Source: an uncultured Prevotella sp.
GTDB lineage: Bacteria > Bacteroidota > Bacteroidia > Bacteroidales > Bacteroidaceae
Assembly (NCBI GenBank): GCA_905235835.1
Contig: CAJONQ010000004.1
Location: 1 to 40,165 of the forward strand
Length of the DNA: 40,165 nt
Direction: 5' to 3'
Shown here piece by piece: positions 1 through 38,218 of the stretch; the first letter of the stretch is position 1; every line of letters begins with the position of its first letter. The notes below the pieces were generated by a model that saw only the letters and a list, made by a program, of their open reading frames with translations, did not search any database and was not told where the DNA came from. Made by a program: the position numbers and the translations under genes.

Positions 1-897
1 GATTTTGTAAGCAACCTCGATGGCTGCCTTACGAATCTTCTCGTTGGTGCATATATAATAAGGTATCTTCTTCAGACTCTCGTAGCCCTTCGCCTCGGCA
101 GTTCCTGCTGCATAGCCATTGCCGCAGGTTTTGTAGAGATAGACACCCGGGGTTCTGTCCATACAACTGAACGAGCCGTCGCTATAGGTGGTTCCCGGAA
201 GGAAGGGAGCGCAGAACGGCACGTAGACATCGATGTCGCGCCAGTTGTACTTGTCGCTGTAGTATGCCTGCAGGGCGGTGGTGATGCCGTCCTTGCTGAC
301 ACCCGTGCTTGCCCACTTGCCTTTGCTGAACAGGCTCTTGCGCAGCGTGCTGGCGATGTTGTGAAGGTCGTGAGCCTCTTGGTCAGCATTCAGGTAGGTC
401 ATGCGGGAGTCTTCGAAGTTCTCGGGAAGCGACTGTCCGAAGTAACGGTGCTCCACATTGATCTGATTAGCGTCGAGTTGCGTGGCAAGTGGACCATACA
501 CCACCATTTCCTCGTTAAAATTATAGCCGTGCGTGTGGAGAACGACATTCTTGTCGAAACCCTTGAAAATCAGTCTTACCCGCTGCGTGAAGGTGCCCGC
601 GTTAGGATTATAGTGGTCTACGGGTTGCGTGAAGTTGAAGTTATACACCTTATCTTCGGTTTCATCGATATCTTTTGTTTCAGAATCCTCGCCGTATACA
701 GTTTCTGTTCCGATCTCTATACCGCTGATCTCGGGAATGGTCTTGAGTGCTGTGATGATATCGTCACTTGTCTCCGTCTCCTTTTCGGGGGTTGTTTCTT
801 CTATTTTCGTCATACTGTTGTCTTCAGAACAGCCTGTAAACAGGACAAGTGCCAACAGCAGTCCTACCAGTAGATATTGTGATTTTTTCATTTTCAT
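1..897 (-). CDS. S37-like serine peptidase lipoprotein, C-terminus beyond window edge
   Basis: Open reading frame on the minus strand, not in the ORF track because it has no stop in the window. Starts MKMKKSQYLLVGLLLALVLFTGCSED (lipobox LFTGC). Contains VEHRYFGQSLPE and STGVSKDGITT, matching VEYRYHGWSLPE and STGVSKNGMTT of the 3161-4795 gene. Confidence 0.8.
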   Translation of the reverse strand, partial: MKMKKSQYLLVGLLLALVLFTGCSEDNSMTKIEETTPEKETETSDDIITALKTIPEISGIEIGTETVYGEDSETKDIDETEDKVYNFNFTQPVDHYNPNAGTFTQRVRLIFKGFDKNVVLHTHGYNFNEEMVVYGPLATQLDANQINVEHRYFGQSLPENFEDSRMTYLNADQEAHDLHNIASTLRKSLFSKGKWASTGVSKDGITTALQAYYSDKYNWRDIDVYVPFCAPFLPGTTYSDGSFSCMDRTPGVYLYKTCGNGYAAGTAEAKGYESLKKIPYYICTNEKIRKAAIEVAYKI

Positions 898-908
898 TGT
901 CTTTAAAA

Positions 909-2453
909 TTAATTGCCTGTCCGGATATACTGAAGTGCACGGTCGAGTTGATTGTCAATATTGCTTGCGACGAATTTCTCGTAATCAAGACTGATGTTGA
1001 TGTCGGGTTCAACACCAACACCTTCACGAATCTTCTTTTCCATGTCGAAGAATGTCAAATACGGCGTATAGCAGTAAACTGGAGTATTATTCCTTATTCC
1101 GATATGTCCGCTATAGTTAAGCGAGAATGTGCTGATGTCATTCAACCCGCAGAGTCCACCATGGGTGCGCGTTCCTATCAACTTGCCGTTAGGCATCAGT
1201 TTGACAGCCGCTGAGGTTATCTCTGCCATACTGACAGAACGTATATTAGCAAGGACTACCACAGGGACGTCATTGATGGTCTCATGGTCACCGCTCATGG
1301 TAGGTAAGACAAAAGGTGTCAATGGCGAGTAGTCGTAACGCCCCAAGCCACGCTTGAAGCGGTTCCAGCCAATCTGGAAGCCGCCTTTCTCCATCAAACT
1401 TCCGAGCACGTATTGGAAATCGTCCATGTAGCCACCGCCGTTGTTGCGAACGTCGATGATGACTCCCTTCAACTTGTTTTGCTTGTGAAGTCGCTGAATG
1501 GCATTGAACCATGCCGTCCATGTGTCCGTCACATATCTTGCGATGGATATGGTGTGCGAATTGGTGACGTCGAAAGTGTTGTAGTATTCTTTCTCGTTAA
1601 GATAGGGGGTGAGAGCGAAACCACTGATGTAAAGGTAGGCTATACCGTCGTCGAACAGGTTATACGTGATTCTAACACCATTATCTATGAATGTCTCGTC
1701 TATCGGGTCAAGATTGGGAATGTTCAGATAACTGTAACGCAAGGCAACATTGTTGTACTGCGTGAGCATCTGCTTTACATTAGGCAACTTTCTCAGTTCC
1801 TCGATTTCTTTCAGAAACTGCGACAATCCACTCGCCTCGGCAGCCTCGCTTTCTGTGGGAGACGGGAGGGCTATCAATTTGTCGTAACGTGTCTGCGCCC
1901 ATTTGACAATGGGTCCATAGATAGCGTCTGTGAGTTGTCTATAGGCTGACGAATTGTATTCCTTTGATTCGACAATACTGCTTGAGTATCCTGACAAATC
2001 GGGAGTGAATTGCGCTAATTGGCTATACCCTTCAATCTTCTGATTACGAATCGAACTGGGCGATGCTAATATGAATTTATTCGTCTTATGGTTCTGGAAC
2101 TCTACCACGAAGTGACCGTCATGCAGCGGAGCCACCATCTCGTTCATGAGATCCTGGAGTTCTTTGTCAGTAACGTCATCCTTCTCGTCAAGAGCCTGGA
2201 ACTTAGGAAGGAAGGTAGCATAGTGCTCGTCCCAGTCAAGACCGTTCTGCTTCTCATAATCCCACAGCGTATAGTTGATGTTCAGCGCTTTCCAGAACAC
2301 GCGGTATTTCCCGGCAAAACTATTTTTCGCCTCGTTAAAACTCAGTTCATCGTTGTTGGCATAACTCATGACGACATCGTTCTCCTCGTGACACGATGTA
2401 GCGCCAACCAGCGTCAGGAACATGAGTCCTAATGTAAATATCTTATTCTTCAT
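909..2453 (-). CDS. S41 family (C-terminal processing-like) peptidase lipoprotein
   Basis: MKNKIFTLGLMFLTLVGATSC lipoprotein signal; GVIIDVRNNGGGYMDD and SVSMAEITSAAVKLMPNGKLIGTRTHGG are S41-type motifs. Start moved from the ORF-track 2564 to the ATG at 2453 before the signal peptide. Confidence 0.8.
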   Translation of the reverse strand: MKNKIFTLGLMFLTLVGATSCHEENDVVMSYANNDELSFNEAKNSFAGKYRVFWKALNINYTLWDYEKQNGLDWDEHYATFLPKFQALDEKDDVTDKELQDLMNEMVAPLHDGHFVVEFQNHKTNKFILASPSSIRNQKIEGYSQLAQFTPDLSGYSSSIVESKEYNSSAYRQLTDAIYGPIVKWAQTRYDKLIALPSPTESEAAEASGLSQFLKEIEELRKLPNVKQMLTQYNNVALRYSYLNIPNLDPIDETFIDNGVRITYNLFDDGIAYLYISGFALTPYLNEKEYYNTFDVTNSHTISIARYVTDTWTAWFNAIQRLHKQNKLKGVIIDVRNNGGGYMDDFQYVLGSLMEKGGFQIGWNRFKRGLGRYDYSPLTPFVLPTMSGDHETINDVPVVVLANIRSVSMAEITSAAVKLMPNGKLIGTRTHGGLCGLNDISTFSLNYSGHIGIRNNTPVYCYTPYLTFFDMEKKIREGVGVEPDINISLDYEKFVASNIDNQLDRALQYIRTGN

Positions 2454-2478
2454 TGTCGTTTTCCTTTTCTTATTTATT

Positions 2479-3144
2479 TTAGAAACAATACCACACTCCG
2501 GCTTGCAGGGCAAGCGTGGAGTTATAGCGGTTATCCTTAAATCCGGTGTAGTCCTTCTGAACACTTACCGTGCTGTAGTAGTAGCGCAACTCCAACTGCG
2601 CAGCCCATTTGGCGGCAAAGCGATACTCCAGACCGGCACCACCGACGAAACCGAAGTCCCAGCGCTGGTCACGCTCGTCGTTGAAATCAATCTTCTCCGA
2701 GAAATCGTATGCTACTAACCCGCTGGTGTTCATTTCCACACCCTTACGGCTGCTATTGAGCCAATAGCCGCCATAGATACCCAGATTGCAGAAGCCGCGG
2801 AGCTTCTTGCCACCGAAACTGAACGATGCCATGACAGGCAATTGCAGATAGTTGTTCGTGTACTTATAGTCGACATACCCGAGTATCGGACGCTTCATAC
2901 GATAGTTCTTCTGTGTCCAGTCGAGTTCAGCGCGCACACCCAACCAGTCGAAGAAATTGTATTGTCCCATTGCGCCCATCGTCACACCCCAGCGGTCCTT
3001 GTACTGGAGGTCTGACTGAAACTGTGTGCTGACGGAGTAGTGATTCACGTCACCTCCGACATTTACGCCCACACGCCATTGGGCAAATGCGGTAATTGGC
3101 AACATGAGTGCCAAAGACAGAAATAGTTTTTTCATATTCATCAT
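2479..3144 (-). CDS. outer-membrane beta-barrel (porin family) protein
   Basis: Signal peptide MKKLFLSLALMLPITAFA; alternating aromatic/polar strands; C-terminal LALQAGVWYCF ends in Phe. Confidence 0.75.
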   Translation of the reverse strand: MMNMKKLFLSLALMLPITAFAQWRVGVNVGGDVNHYSVSTQFQSDLQYKDRWGVTMGAMGQYNFFDWLGVRAELDWTQKNYRMKRPILGYVDYKYTNNYLQLPVMASFSFGGKKLRGFCNLGIYGGYWLNSSRKGVEMNTSGLVAYDFSEKIDFNDERDQRWDFGFVGGAGLEYRFAAKWAAQLELRYYYSTVSVQKDYTGFKDNRYNSTLALQAGVWYCF

Positions 3145-3160
3145 ATTATCGTCTTATTAA

Positions 3161-4795
3161 TTATTCAAAGTTGAAGCCCAGACCAGCGAGCCATTGTAAA
3201 AGATCGTTTCTCTCCGACGCGTTCCACTTATCTATGGCATCATCATGTTTGCCGTACGAGATGAAGAGTTTTGAACTGTTCGGACCCATCTTGTCGTCAG
3301 GAATCTGGCCACCCGTCCAGGGATCCTGCATGCCATAGACAAACTTCATGTGACAATCAGACTTCTTCATACCTTCAAAGAACTCATTGATAAACTTGCC
3401 GTTGTCGTAGGTCACACCATACGCAGAAGGATTGTGCCCCGAATCCTGGAGATATTTCTTTTCCTCAGGAGTCAACAAGTCATCTACCCATGTCGTAACA
3501 AATCCATAAGTTCCCAGTTCTATGCATACCTGAACAAAATAGGCGACTTTACGTTTGACAGCGTCTGCACCTCTGCGGACAAGGCTGGCAGAACTCTCGT
3601 CGGAATAGGATGACGACTCAAAGTCTGTGTAATAGTACTTACGGCGGTCGTAATCGAACTGGTCTTCCCCATTGTATTTAGTCTCGCCATTGGCAAGAAT
3701 GAAATCAAGGAATTTCTTGGCATCGTCGCCAGCCTGGGGTATCATGGGCTCCCACCGCTCGTATGTCACATAAGACATTTTGCCAAAATAATTATCAAAC
3801 AAATTCGCCAACAAATTTTTTCGAACATCTTCATCCGATGATGCCGCCATCGAAGGTGCCTGCTGTTTGTACAACTTCACGCACTCAGCCTGCAAATTCC
3901 TGTTCCCTACATACGCACGGAAAGCAGCCTTCACCTTCTCATATCTTTCCTCATTATCATTAAATGCCTTTTTGTCAAGGATATGCTTAAACGGTCTGTC
4001 GTCATTCAGACTATTCAGGAAGGGGGCACAGAAGGGCACGTATGCATCCATTTCGTTGGGATAGTAATAGGCATAGTGGGCGGTCGTCATACCATTCTTG
4101 CTGACACCGGTAGATACCCACTTGCTGCTCTGCGAGATGATGCCACTCTTCTTGATGGCTGTGACAATGGCATGCAAGTCGTCCGAATGCTGCTTGGCAG
4201 TCAGGTAGTTCCATTTATTAGTGTATCCCTCAGGCAGCGACCAACCGTGATAGCGGTATTCCACCTGCAGACAGTTGGCATTGAGGGCCGGCACGAGTGC
4301 CGGTTCGCCGATTATGTCCAAACGGTTATTATCTCCTTCCAAGGCATAGCCCTCGGTATGCAGTACGGTGGGGCGGTCCTTGCCAGCCACGGTGAGCATG
4401 CACTGCTGCTTATACCATCCCTTCGAGGGATTGTTGTGGTCGATCGGCTGCTTGAAGTTGAAGTAATAGGCAGTCTTTGTAATATTTTCCTTTTTGAAGT
4501 AGTCGTAAATACCCGTTATTTTGAAAGGCTTCACGTCGGTCACATTGTCGATTGCCTTCAGGGCGTCGACGATAGCCTGGTCAAAGTCTGTAGTTGCAGG
4601 CACCTTGGTTTTGAACTGGTTCTCAGGCATTGTCATACCCTCTCCCACCTCTATCTTGTAACCATCCTCATCAGTAGTAGGATCAACAGTCTCTTTGCCG
4701 TTGTCATTATCATCACTGTCGCTGCACGAGGTCAGCATCAGTCCAAGACCACAATAAAGGATGGTGATCAGCATCCATAGATTTTTCTTTTTCAT
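3161..4795 (-). CDS. S37-like (PS-10 type) serine peptidase lipoprotein
   Basis: Lipobox LTSC; FNFKQPIDHNNPSKGWYKQQ, VEYRYHGWSLPEGY, STGVSKNGMTTAHYAYYYPNEMDAYVPFCAPF; C-terminal GMQDPWTGGQIPD and SYGKHDD. Confidence 0.75.
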   Translation of the reverse strand: MKKKNLWMLITILYCGLGLMLTSCSDSDDNDNGKETVDPTTDEDGYKIEVGEGMTMPENQFKTKVPATTDFDQAIVDALKAIDNVTDVKPFKITGIYDYFKKENITKTAYYFNFKQPIDHNNPSKGWYKQQCMLTVAGKDRPTVLHTEGYALEGDNNRLDIIGEPALVPALNANCLQVEYRYHGWSLPEGYTNKWNYLTAKQHSDDLHAIVTAIKKSGIISQSSKWVSTGVSKNGMTTAHYAYYYPNEMDAYVPFCAPFLNSLNDDRPFKHILDKKAFNDNEERYEKVKAAFRAYVGNRNLQAECVKLYKQQAPSMAASSDEDVRKNLLANLFDNYFGKMSYVTYERWEPMIPQAGDDAKKFLDFILANGETKYNGEDQFDYDRRKYYYTDFESSSYSDESSASLVRRGADAVKRKVAYFVQVCIELGTYGFVTTWVDDLLTPEEKKYLQDSGHNPSAYGVTYDNGKFINEFFEGMKKSDCHMKFVYGMQDPWTGGQIPDDKMGPNSSKLFISYGKHDDAIDKWNASERNDLLQWLAGLGFNFE

Positions 4796-4825
4796 TTCTT
4801 ACATCCAATTATATAACACTGTCTT

Positions 4826-5548
4826 TTAATTCTTATGATGATAGTCCTGTATCAATCCCTTCTTCACGAGGATGGGCAGGATGTTGGCGGCAGACTGGCG
4901 GTCACCCTTCTTGTTACGCCCGTAATACTGCTCGTAGGTAACGGGGTCGTCACGCAGCAGATTCTCCATGAAGGCGTCGTTCAGGCGGGTCATGATATAC
5001 TTGCCTTTCGCATTAGGCTCCTTGTCGACCAGAAAGAGTATATGGTTCTGCATCAGGTCATCGTTGGTCAGCAACAGGTCGGTGGCGAGGAAGATGCTTC
5101 CCCAGGTGGTATGCCCGGTGGCAAGCAGACCGATGTCGAGACCGACATTCACCAAGTCCAGGACATCGCTCAGTGTCACATGGTAACTGACTACCAACAG
5201 TTTATTTCCCTTGTAAGGGAGGGCTCGCAGGTAGTTGTTGACTGGCAGGATGCCACCGTCCTCGTCACGCAGGAAACGCTGGTTGATAAACAACTGTTTG
5301 TCAATGGTCATCAAAAACACATCCGACTTGATAACCTTGTTTACTTCCTTGTCGGAAGTCTTGAGGGTAAAGTCCTGACCGTCGTACTTCACACGTATGG
5401 AGTCGGGCTCCTTACCTGGAATCAATTCCTCGTAGGACTTCCAATGATTAGCCTTGTAATCGGCATAACTTAAACAGAACTTCGTCTGTGCTTGTGCATT
5501 AAGTGCCATAAGGCACACCATCATGATTAGTAATTGTACTCTTTTCAT
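4826..5548 (-). CDS. hypothetical exported protein
   Basis: 240-aa ORF with signal peptide MKRVQLLIMMVCLMALNAQA; promoter-like TTG-N20-TATATTTG upstream. No family recognised. Confidence 0.7.
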   Translation of the reverse strand: MKRVQLLIMMVCLMALNAQAQTKFCLSYADYKANHWKSYEELIPGKEPDSIRVKYDGQDFTLKTSDKEVNKVIKSDVFLMTIDKQLFINQRFLRDEDGGILPVNNYLRALPYKGNKLLVVSYHVTLSDVLDLVNVGLDIGLLATGHTTWGSIFLATDLLLTNDDLMQNHILFLVDKEPNAKGKYIMTRLNDAFMENLLRDDPVTYEQYYGRNKKGDRQSAANILPILVKKGLIQDYHHKN

Positions 5549-5604
5549 ACTATTTTCATACTATCTATATTTGTCCAAAAAACTATTTATCAGCATTTCG
5601 TATG

Positions 5605-5635
5605 CAAATATACATTAATTATATATTATATGCAA
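5605..5635 (-). promoter_or_regulatory. Bacteroidota-type promoter for the 5548->1 gene run
   Basis: Minus strand TTG (CAA at 5633-5635) - 20 bp - TATATTTG (5605-5612), matching TTG-N19-21-TAnnTTTG. Confidence 0.65.
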
Positions 5636-5729
5636 AGAACAAATTCAATTTTAACATATCACTTTGCGCCTTTTTGTTTTAAATCATGTGGCAAGAGTAT
5701 CGGCAATACCCCTTCCCTGACAGGAGAAA

Positions 5730-6203
5730 TCACTCCCAACGCTGATAGGGATGACGACGTAACTGGGAGTTGTAATATCGGCGGTCACCCGTCACTTCTT
5801 TCCCGATGAAATCGGGAATTATCGGACTTTCATCAACGGATGAAAGCTCCACTTCCGCCATGACAAGTCCCTCGTTCTCACCAAAGAACTCGTCGACCTC
5901 AAAGGTGTGTTTCCCGCTTTTCACGAGCCATCTGGTCTTGTCAATGATACCTGGCTCGCAGAGAAACATCAGTCTTTTACCATCTTCCAAGGGGATCTCA
6001 TACTCAAACTCGTCACGGGAGAGTCCACCATCGATGCTGGGCCCCTTTATCGTGAGGTAAGCATGGTCGTCACGGATGCGAACACGGACCGTCCGTCCCC
6101 GTTCACTACAGATATACCCCTGCTGGATATGGCTATGACTGAACGACTCCTGTTTGTAGGAGTCGTTCAGTACTAAGAATTTGCGTTCAATCTCTTTCGC
6201 CAT
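5730..6203 (-). CDS. CYTH domain protein (triphosphatase / class IV adenylate cyclase-like)
   Basis: N-terminal MAKEIERKFLV (ExExK signature), RVRIRDDHAYLTIKGP, VDEFFGENEGLVMAEVEL. ATG at 6203. Confidence 0.88.
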   Translation of the reverse strand: MAKEIERKFLVLNDSYKQESFSHSHIQQGYICSERGRTVRVRIRDDHAYLTIKGPSIDGGLSRDEFEYEIPLEDGKRLMFLCEPGIIDKTRWLVKSGKHTFEVDEFFGENEGLVMAEVELSSVDESPIIPDFIGKEVTGDRRYYNSQLRRHPYQRWE

Positions 6204-35583: not shown

Positions 35584-37557
35584 ATGGCAGAAGAACTGAA
35601 CAAAGAAAGCAATTATTCCGCGAGTAATATTCAGGTGCTCGAGGGTTTAGAGGCAGTGCGTAAACGCCCTGCCATGTATATCGGTGATATCAGTGAGAAG
35701 GGGTTGCACCATTTGGTGAACGAGACCGTCGACAACTCTATCGACGAGGCGATGGCAGGCTACTGCACCCATATCGAGGTCACCATCAACGAAGACAACT
35801 CCATCACCGTGTTAGACAACGGACGTGGTATCCCTGTCGACGAGCACGAGAAGATGCATAAGTCGGCACTCGAGGTCGTGATGACCGTCCTCCATGCCGG
35901 TGGTAAGTTCGACAAAGGCTCCTACAAGGTCAGCGGTGGACTCCATGGTGTCGGTGTCAGCTGTGTCAACGCCCTCTCCACCCACATGCTCTCCCAGGTA
36001 TACCGTAACGGACATATCTACCAGCAGGAATACGAGAAGGGAAAGCCCCTCTACGACGTGAAGATCGTAGGTGACACCGACAAGACCGGTACACGCCAGC
36101 AGTTCTGGCCCGACGCCACCATCTTCACCACGACGGAATACAAATACGACATCATTGCCCGCCGCATGCGTGAGCTCGCCTACCTGAATGCAGGCATCAC
36201 CATCACGCTCACCGACCTCCGTCCTGACGAGGAGGGCAACCTGCGCCAGCCAGAGGTCTTCCATGCCAAGGAGGGACTGAAGGAGTTCGTTCGTTATGTC
36301 GACCGTCACCGCACCCACCTCTTCGACGATGTCATCTACCTGAAGACCGAGAAGCAGGGTGTGCCCATCGAGGTCGCTGTGATGTACAATACCGACTATA
36401 GTGAGAATATCCACTCCTACGTGAATAATATCAACACCATCGAGGGAGGTACCCACCTCACGGGTTTCCGCATGGCACTCACCCGTACACTGAAGGCGTA
36501 TGCCGATGCCGACCCACAGATCTCCAAGCAGATCGAGAAGGCGAAGATAGAGATTGCCGGTGAGGACTTCCGTGAGGGACTCTCCGCTGTCATCTCCATC
36601 AAGGTGGCAGAGCCCCAGTTCGAGGGACAGACCAAGACGAAGCTCGGCAACTCCGAGGTCACCGGTGCCGTCCAGCAGGCTGTCGGTGAGGCTTTGAGCA
36701 ACTATCTGGAGGAACACCCGAAGGAGGCTAAGCTCATCTGCGACAAGGTGGTCCTTGCCGCCACCGCACGTATCGCTGCCCGTAAGGCACGTGAGAGTGT
36801 ACAGCGTAAGAACCCGATGACAGGTGGCGGACTTCCCGGTAAGCTCGCTGACTGCTCCAATAAAGACCCGAAAGACTGTGAGATATTCCTCGTCGAGGGT
36901 GACTCTGCCGGTGGTTCTGCTAAGCAGGGGCGTGACCGTCACTTCCAGGCGATCCTCCCCTTGCGTGGTAAAATCCTGAATGTGGAGAAAGTACAGTGGC
37001 ACCGTGTCTTCGAGGCTGAGTCCGTCATGAACATCATCCAGTCCATCGGTGTCCGCTTCGGTGTTGACGGCGAGGGCGACCGTGAGGCGAATATCGACAA
37101 GCTGCGTTACGACAAGATCATTATCATGACCGATGCCGATGTCGATGGCTCTCACATCGACACCCTGATCATGACCCTCTTCTATCGCTTCATGCCGCAG
37201 GTCATCCAAGGTGGTCACCTCTATATCGCCACCCCACCCCTCTACAAGTGTACCTACAAGAAATTCTCTGAGTATTGCTATACAGAGCAGCAGCGTCAGA
37301 ACTTCATCGACCGTTATGTCGACGGACGTGACGATGACAAAGCACTGCACACCCAGCGATACAAAGGTCTTGGTGAGATGAACCCCGAGCAGCTGTGGGA
37401 GACCACCATGAACCCCGAGAACCGTCTGTTGAAGCAAGTCACCATCGAGAATGCCGCCCAGGCTGACGAGATATTCTCCATGCTGATGGGAGATGACGTA
37501 GAGCCCCGTCGTGAGTTCATCGAGCAGAATGCGACCTACGCCAATATCGACGCATAA
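35584..37557 (+). CDS. gyrB: DNA gyrase subunit B
   Basis: RKRPAMYIGDISEKGLHHLVNETVDNSIDEAMAGYC, EGDSAGGSAKQGRDRHFQAILPLRGKILNVEK, MTDADVDGSHI, QRYKGLGEMNPEQLWETTMNPENR. Confidence 0.97.
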   Translation: MAEELNKESNYSASNIQVLEGLEAVRKRPAMYIGDISEKGLHHLVNETVDNSIDEAMAGYCTHIEVTINEDNSITVLDNGRGIPVDEHEKMHKSALEVVMTVLHAGGKFDKGSYKVSGGLHGVGVSCVNALSTHMLSQVYRNGHIYQQEYEKGKPLYDVKIVGDTDKTGTRQQFWPDATIFTTTEYKYDIIARRMRELAYLNAGITITLTDLRPDEEGNLRQPEVFHAKEGLKEFVRYVDRHRTHLFDDVIYLKTEKQGVPIEVAVMYNTDYSENIHSYVNNINTIEGGTHLTGFRMALTRTLKAYADADPQISKQIEKAKIEIAGEDFREGLSAVISIKVAEPQFEGQTKTKLGNSEVTGAVQQAVGEALSNYLEEHPKEAKLICDKVVLAATARIAARKARESVQRKNPMTGGGLPGKLADCSNKDPKDCEIFLVEGDSAGGSAKQGRDRHFQAILPLRGKILNVEKVQWHRVFEAESVMNIIQSIGVRFGVDGEGDREANIDKLRYDKIIIMTDADVDGSHIDTLIMTLFYRFMPQVIQGGHLYIATPPLYKCTYKKFSEYCYTEQQRQNFIDRYVDGRDDDKALHTQRYKGLGEMNPEQLWETTMNPENRLLKQVTIENAAQADEIFSMLMGDDVEPRREFIEQNATYANIDA

Positions 37558-37629: not shown

Positions 37630-37664
37630 CCCCTGCTAATCGTGAGATTCGCAGGGGTTTTTGT
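37630..37664 (+). terminator. Rho-independent terminator of gyrB
   Basis: CCCCTGCTAATC(37630-37641)-GTGA-GATTCGCAGGGG(37646-37657), 12-bp stem with one mismatch and GNRA-type loop, then TTTTTTGTT. Confidence 0.9.
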
Positions 37665-37744
37665 TCTGTACTTTGATTAATTTCTGACTCATAGTCTTTG
37701 TGTGTGTTTAAAGGGTTAATGGGTTGTGCGCACTGTCGATGGAA

Positions 37745-37825
37745 TCAGTCGGTAACTGAGTGCCCTTCAGTCGGCAACTGAGTCGTGGTCAGTCGGTAAC
37801 CGAGTGCCCTTCAGTCGGTAACCGA
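37745..37825. repeat. four tandem 22-bp repeats with internal dyads (last unit partial)
   Basis: TCAGTCGGTAACTGAGTGCCCT (37745), TCAGTCGGCAACTGAGTCGTGG (37767), TCAGTCGGTAACCGAGTGCCCT (37789), TCAGTCGGTAACCGA (37811). Confidence 0.9.
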
Positions 37826-37845
37826 CTTTCATCCGATGACAACGG

Positions 37846-37876
37846 CAAAGGTACAACATTTTACATGTAATGTCAA
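37846..37876 (-). promoter_or_regulatory. leftward promoter driving transcription through the 22-bp repeats
   Basis: Minus-strand TTG (CAA 37874-37876)-N20-TACCTTTG (37846-37853); spacer contains ACATTTTACATGTAATGT dyad (37856-37873). Confidence 0.55.
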
Positions 37877-37919
37877 GGTTTTCCACCCCAAACGTGTACG
37901 AAAACGTGCACGGAAAAAC

Positions 37920-38085
37920 GGTGACGGTGACGGTTACAGTTTTCCAAAAATGAGAATCCTCAGAAGCGTATAAAACCCGTATATTTATATTACTATATAT
38001 ATAATATATATATTATATATATAGTAAAAGTTATAGTCAACCTTTTCAGTACGATTTCACAAAAACTGTAACCGTCACCGTCACC
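37920..38085. mobile_element. MITE-like element: perfect 24-bp inverted arms, no transposase
   Basis: GGTGACGGTGACGGTTACAGTTTT (37920-37943) and AAAACTGTAACCGTCACCGTCACC (38062-38085) are exact reverse complements around an AT-rich 118-bp core. Confidence 0.5.
37990..38027. repeat. 38-bp perfect AT palindrome
   Basis: TTACTATATATATAATATATATATTATATATATAGTAA is its own reverse complement. Confidence 0.9.
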
Positions 38086-38187
38086 ACTTTGAAGTCAGTT
38101 TCCCGTTGAAATGGGGTATTTTTGATGATAGTAACAAAATTATTTGAGTGGATGTAACAAAAGTTAATCGATTTGGAACAAAAATAT

Positions 38188-38218
38188 TTGTTTTTCCACC
38201 CTACTCCCTGTAACTTTG
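38188..38218 (+). promoter_or_regulatory. promoter of the HhH/barrel gene
   Basis: TTG(38188-38190)-N20-TAACTTTG(38211-38218), ending 4 nt before the ATG at 38223. Confidence 0.65.

Follow-up and report, generated by a model that had tools for sequence, protein, structure and literature searches.

Iteron-type phased repeats are direct repeats of about 22 bp, or two helical turns, a spacing that lends itself to cooperative binding along the same side of the helix. To our knowledge, leader arrays with a 22-bp period are not a described trait of the HU-HIG / HU_rel family of proteins (PF18291, TIGR01201). The BrickBuilt MITE of Porphyromonas gingivalis is present in about 20 intergenic copies that consist of a 23-nt tandem minisatellite with conserved leader and tail flanks, contain promoters within the element with bidirectional promoter activity, and have IS5-like ends (GAGACCTTTGCA / GAGACC(T)TTGCA) (PMC4596501). 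A literature search on Prevotella 22-bp arrays, HU-HIG and DUF6078 retrieved nothing relevant, and an array system conserved in its spacing appears to be undescribed.

The window analyzed here is the whole 40,165-nt stretch of contig CAJONQ010000004.1 from an uncultured Prevotella sp. (GCA_905235835.1). Its gyrB gene (35584-37557, plus strand; taken from the ORF list and matching Pfam DNA_gyraseB with an E-value of 1.9e-56) is followed by a stem (37630-37641 / 37646-37657) and T-run that probably constitute the gyrB terminator (37630-37662, plus strand) and are conserved in a sister species. Farther downstream lie four 22-bp units arranged head-to-tail (37745-37832, minus strand), which read leftward share the core TTACCGACTGA and comprise TCGGTTACCGACTGA (twice), TCAGTTGCCGACTGA and TCAGTTACCGACTGA. 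The Tandem Repeats Finder (TRF) score of this array was 107, the highest within the window, and no such array was obtained from shuffled non-coding DNA of the sampled genomes. A Bacteroidales promoter of the form TTG-N20-TACCTTTG (37846-37876, minus strand; start expected near 37840) is aimed into the array, its -7 box agreeing with the published consensus TAnnTTTG (PMC7366714); the window contains four matches to this pattern, compared with 0.37 expected. Upstream of this promoter lies a long inverted repeat with 29-nt arms (37915-37943 / 38062-38090) carrying the motif GGTGACGGTGACGGTTACAG and enclosing a perfect 38-bp A/T palindrome (37990-38027). The promoter of the next gene (38188-38218, plus strand; gene start 38223) is directed away from the element.

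A previous sequence-only reading of this locus had reported the array downstream of gyrB, the promoter pointing into it and the lack of a leftward U-tract terminator, and each of these observations held: a minus-strand terminator toward gyrB was searched for and none was found. The same reading had proposed a leftward non-coding RNA with four hairpins maintained by compensatory change. In the predicted minus-strand fold, different units instead pair with one another to give a single long, imperfect stem (z -1.9), and when the dyad was compared with shuffled 22-mers the commonest unit reached p 0.51 and the best unit p 0.09. The arms were found to differ by a single A/G only, with no second, compensating change. 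Because this A/G variation lies in the 5' part of the unit and the 3' part ACCGACTGA hardly varies across the window units (GCCGACTGA in one of them), one base shifts the pairing register. A covariation check in related genomes gave the same result, as pairing among 35 distinct units did not exceed that of shuffles (149 of 2000 reached it). Across 171 units from four genomes (this one and its relatives) the 5' arm is variable and columns 6-13 (TACCGACT) are retained, being at least 88% conserved with most columns above 95%. The conserved feature is the core TACCGACT, not a hairpin.

The reading that the locus encodes a dedicated small RNA transcribed leftward, or an RNA antisense to gyrB, with the repeated hairpins as its functional part, would profit from the good promoter and from the free path toward gyrB, and one BrickBuilt locus of P. 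gingivalis does overlap a reported putative sRNA (PMC4596501). We nevertheless consider it highly improbable: covariation was not beyond shuffles, the fold lacks the four hairpins, a scan of the window against Rfam at gathering score matched only a tRNA elsewhere and nothing at the array, the locus is missing from the sister species, and the leader terminates in the start codon of an HU-type gene. The promoter feeding the array is very probably genuine, and the notion of a dedicated ncRNA behind it fails on covariation.

On contig C105 of the same genome, the inverted repeat, the promoter block (93% identical), an array of three 22-bp units and the leader follow each other in the same order as in the window, and the C105 leader runs into an intact HU-HIG gene (C105:4260-4805; PF18291, E-value 1.5e-16; NCBIfam HU_rel, E-value 3.7e-13, which is below the cut-off of that model). 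The window promoter and leader thus share homology with their counterparts at an intact HU-HIG gene. The distal leader of the window (GCGACAGTGCGCACAACC...ATTAACCC...ACACAAAGAC-ATG; 37690-37744, minus strand) could be aligned with the leader of the C105 gene and with two copies in the sister species G043, which like C105 carries three units as compared to four in the window. Downstream of the window leader there is no intact HU-HIG coding sequence; what is left is a start codon (37690-37692) and a short ORF (MSQKLIKVQNKNP). This ORF of 18 codons (MSQKLIKVQNKNPCESHD; 37636-37692 including the start codon, minus strand) is probably what remains of the start of an HU-HIG gene, as a 42-nt stretch around the start codon matches the start of another HU-HIG gene of this genome, on C128 (MSQKFIKAKNNN), at 32 positions, which is a short match. 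Of the two G043 copies, one (G043:C9) precedes an HU-HIG gene start that is truncated after about 25 codons and the other (G043:C41) is cut within the leader. At the gyrB locus of G043 the syntenic terminator and the next gene are present and the element between them is absent. Taken together, the unit before the intact gene in C105, the truncated G043 copies, the C128 match and the element-free G043 gyrB locus make it probable that the window holds the stranded upstream region of a mobile-type HU-HIG gene whose coding part was lost.

Whether the element arrived by insertion or results from the decay of a resident HU gene, the data fit both. The empty site of G043 is too diverged to define a target-site duplication, and the inverted repeat is located on one side only. 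A search of 299 genomes for a coding parent, using the inverted-repeat arm as query, detected the arm only in G043 and G175. 

A leftward transcript is plausible as the orphaned 5' leader of the lost protein gene, rather than as a dedicated ncRNA, because a matching promoter, array and leader precede the intact HU-HIG gene in C105. The window promoter would still fire leftward, and the resulting leader RNA would have no specific job and may extend antisense into gyrB; RNA from the window array is most likely a by-product, the gene of the array being lost. In intact genes, the array just past the promoter would act as a regulatory stretch, probably as sites lined up at intervals of two helical turns and coated by the HU-type protein or a partner, and such coating would allow the HU-type protein to control its own gene. 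The binding of HU-HIG proteins to the arrays is only a guess, because 22-bp arrays also lie far from HU genes.

Tandem arrays of the 22-bp window unit occur at about 17 places in the genome, and the long inverted repeat is present in five copies, each adjoining a 22-bp array; as some assembly breaks lie within the inverted repeat or the array, these draft-genome copy numbers should be read as minimum counts. Several such breaks in or next to repeats were observed (ends of C95 and C110, L080 and L081; start of C3, L069). The genome-wide count proposed by the sequence-only reading thus revealed half of what it had set against its own proposal: the repeats are dispersed arrays, and a promoter accompanies them at only two of the places (C4 and C105). 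The array loci that were examined are intergenic or at gene ends, beside ordinary chromosomal genes, and the remaining arrays of the window unit would be dispersed minisatellites. Further arrays of this unit were identified in RUG037 and Prevotella sp. tf2-5, and a search of genome contigs for the tandem core pattern retrieved only RUG037, tf2-5 and UBA2755, all of them Prevotella-type genomes.

Many of the arrays in this genome and two relatives are longer and ordered, with about 20 units that each differ; the series starts with the TCAGTTACCGACTGA-type, continues with ATTAAAGCC- and CTCCAAGCCCC-types and ends in CACCTTCGACCC-types, an order kept across loci. The 22-bp register is held in these arrays even where adjacent units share only about half of their letters. 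A lysozyme-like gene (MPTKRKPQHKSTTKR...) was noted as a shared neighbor of an ordered array in one species (L069, C3:1-250) and of the HU-promoter form in the other (L090, G043:C41), which may reflect recombination between the two kinds of array at this site.

The leader of the C128 HU-HIG gene contains an array of quite different sequence that begins about 18 nt past the -7 box and yet has a period of 22, and the period was therefore tested instead of the sequence. For this analysis 29 HU-HIG genes were chosen by profile score alone, and 57 upstream regions of neighboring genes served as controls. A strong lag-22 or lag-44 array was found upstream of 9/29 HU-HIG genes versus 2/57 controls (Fisher p 0.0007), and other periods showed no difference (5/29 versus 14/57). 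In several of these HU-HIG upstream regions, the distance from the -7 box to the start of the array is about 55 nt or less. Most HU-HIG genes tested lack such an array; with only about a third carrying one, a leader array as a universal trait of HU genes was ruled out.

A survey of non-coding tandem arrays with periods of 10-49 covered 200-400 kb of each of five genomes of the genus; array z-scores were obtained from mononucleotide shuffles. Period 22, which recurs with unrelated sequences, was the commonest and accounted for 28 of the 76 arrays; G130 supplies 16 of these 28, mostly from one dispersed family. Shuffled non-coding DNA of three genomes yielded zero period-22 arrays. A small outside sample, which covered some 225 kb of DNA (part of it masked) of further families in the order plus 100 kb of G014, had no array at period 22. 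Dyad symmetry was rejected as a general principle of the 22-bp arrays, as 2 of the 28 had p<0.05, which is not above shuffled units. The G130 family (L251-L270; core AAAAGCTAAG) is a dense, dispersed non-coding family present in both orientations. The majority of the 16 lag-22 arrays found in the 400 kb sampled from G130 fall within it, and period 41 is also common in that genome.

An alternative account of these arrays is that they are neutral minisatellites, their 22-bp period arising from slippage only with nothing selected. The variation in unit number among the window, C105 and G043 copies is in line with this account, as is the fact that minisatellites, other periods included, are common in the genus, and we regard it as a serious possibility that stops short of being probable. 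It is harder to reconcile with the recurrence of period 22 among unrelated sequences in five genomes, with a register held through roughly 20 strongly diverged units of the ordered arrays, and with an enrichment upstream of HU-HIG genes that is specific to lag 22. A further proposal, which we put forward as speculation and judge to be unlikely, is that the genus keeps intergenic arrays in which the 22-bp spacing and not the sequence is selected, that these provide phased sites two turns apart for HU-HIG proteins or their partners, typically just past the HU-HIG promoter where they would serve self-control, and that they spread with mobile gene modules.

Some 22-bp arrays have palindromic units (e.g., TGGAACACTTTGTTCCA; L142 2480-2600, L278 9088-9248, L289 413-537), and these sit between DUF6078 and VapE-like genes as well as elsewhere, so that period 22 is not confined to HU-HIG genes. 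Two gene pairs composed of DUF6078 (PF19555) and a VapE-like gene (PF05272, DUF3874) were found at L143 (G000:C21) 3916-6169 and at L142 (G000:C68) 471-3270. Each pair lies between terminal inverted repeats, with lengths of 84 bp (89%) and 124 bp (90%), respectively, that are built of different short motifs (GGGAGTAGTT; TTGCCACCGTTGCC), and blocks of these motifs also occur alone beside ordered 22-bp arrays (C51, C2, C64, C3; C6, C50). This suggests an undescribed family of mobile elements with motif-specific ends and solo copies.

Understood as a probable relic, the window locus accounts for a tempting but false ncRNA call. It also exposed a pattern in a genus of gut (rumen-type) bacteria, in which 22-bp arrays of unrelated sequence dominate the non-coding tandem repeats and occur above chance upstream of HU-type genes. 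If their spacing is selected, these arrays would represent an uncommon DNA element defined by period and not by sequence, and would offer an experimental handle on a large and essentially unstudied family of HU-like proteins of Bacteroidetes.

BrickBuilt is the nearest described counterpart, since the window element is likewise a multi-copy, intergenic minisatellite that has conserved flanks, carries a promoter and occurs in one genus-level group. The two differ in period (23 versus 22), and the promoter of the window element belongs to an HU-HIG gene. The IS5-like terminal repeat of BrickBuilt had no match at the element and only chance-level matches with two mismatches in the window, and the tandem core pattern of the window unit was not found in P. 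gingivalis genome contigs. Membership in BrickBuilt was thus ruled out by period, ends and sequence, and the similarity is one of kind only. A more general version of this comparison, in which the locus is a MITE-like dispersed element of the BrickBuilt type whose promoter is an incidental passenger unlinked to HU function, draws on the combination of an inverted repeat, a minisatellite and an outward promoter in multiple non-coding intergenic copies, for which BrickBuilt offers equivalent parts and promoter activity. We find this version rather doubtful, as the promoter, like the leader, demonstrably belongs to an HU-HIG gene, and neither a terminal inverted repeat around the array and the inverted repeat together nor the BrickBuilt TIR was seen. 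With iterons the window array shares direct repeats at two-turn spacing; in contrast to them it has no replication gene or origin and is chromosomal, dispersed and adjoining a promoter. The HU-HIG / HU_rel proteins are matched by the intact C105 copy and its relatives, and of this family the window carries the promoter, the leader and the start codon, with only a short remnant of the coding sequence.
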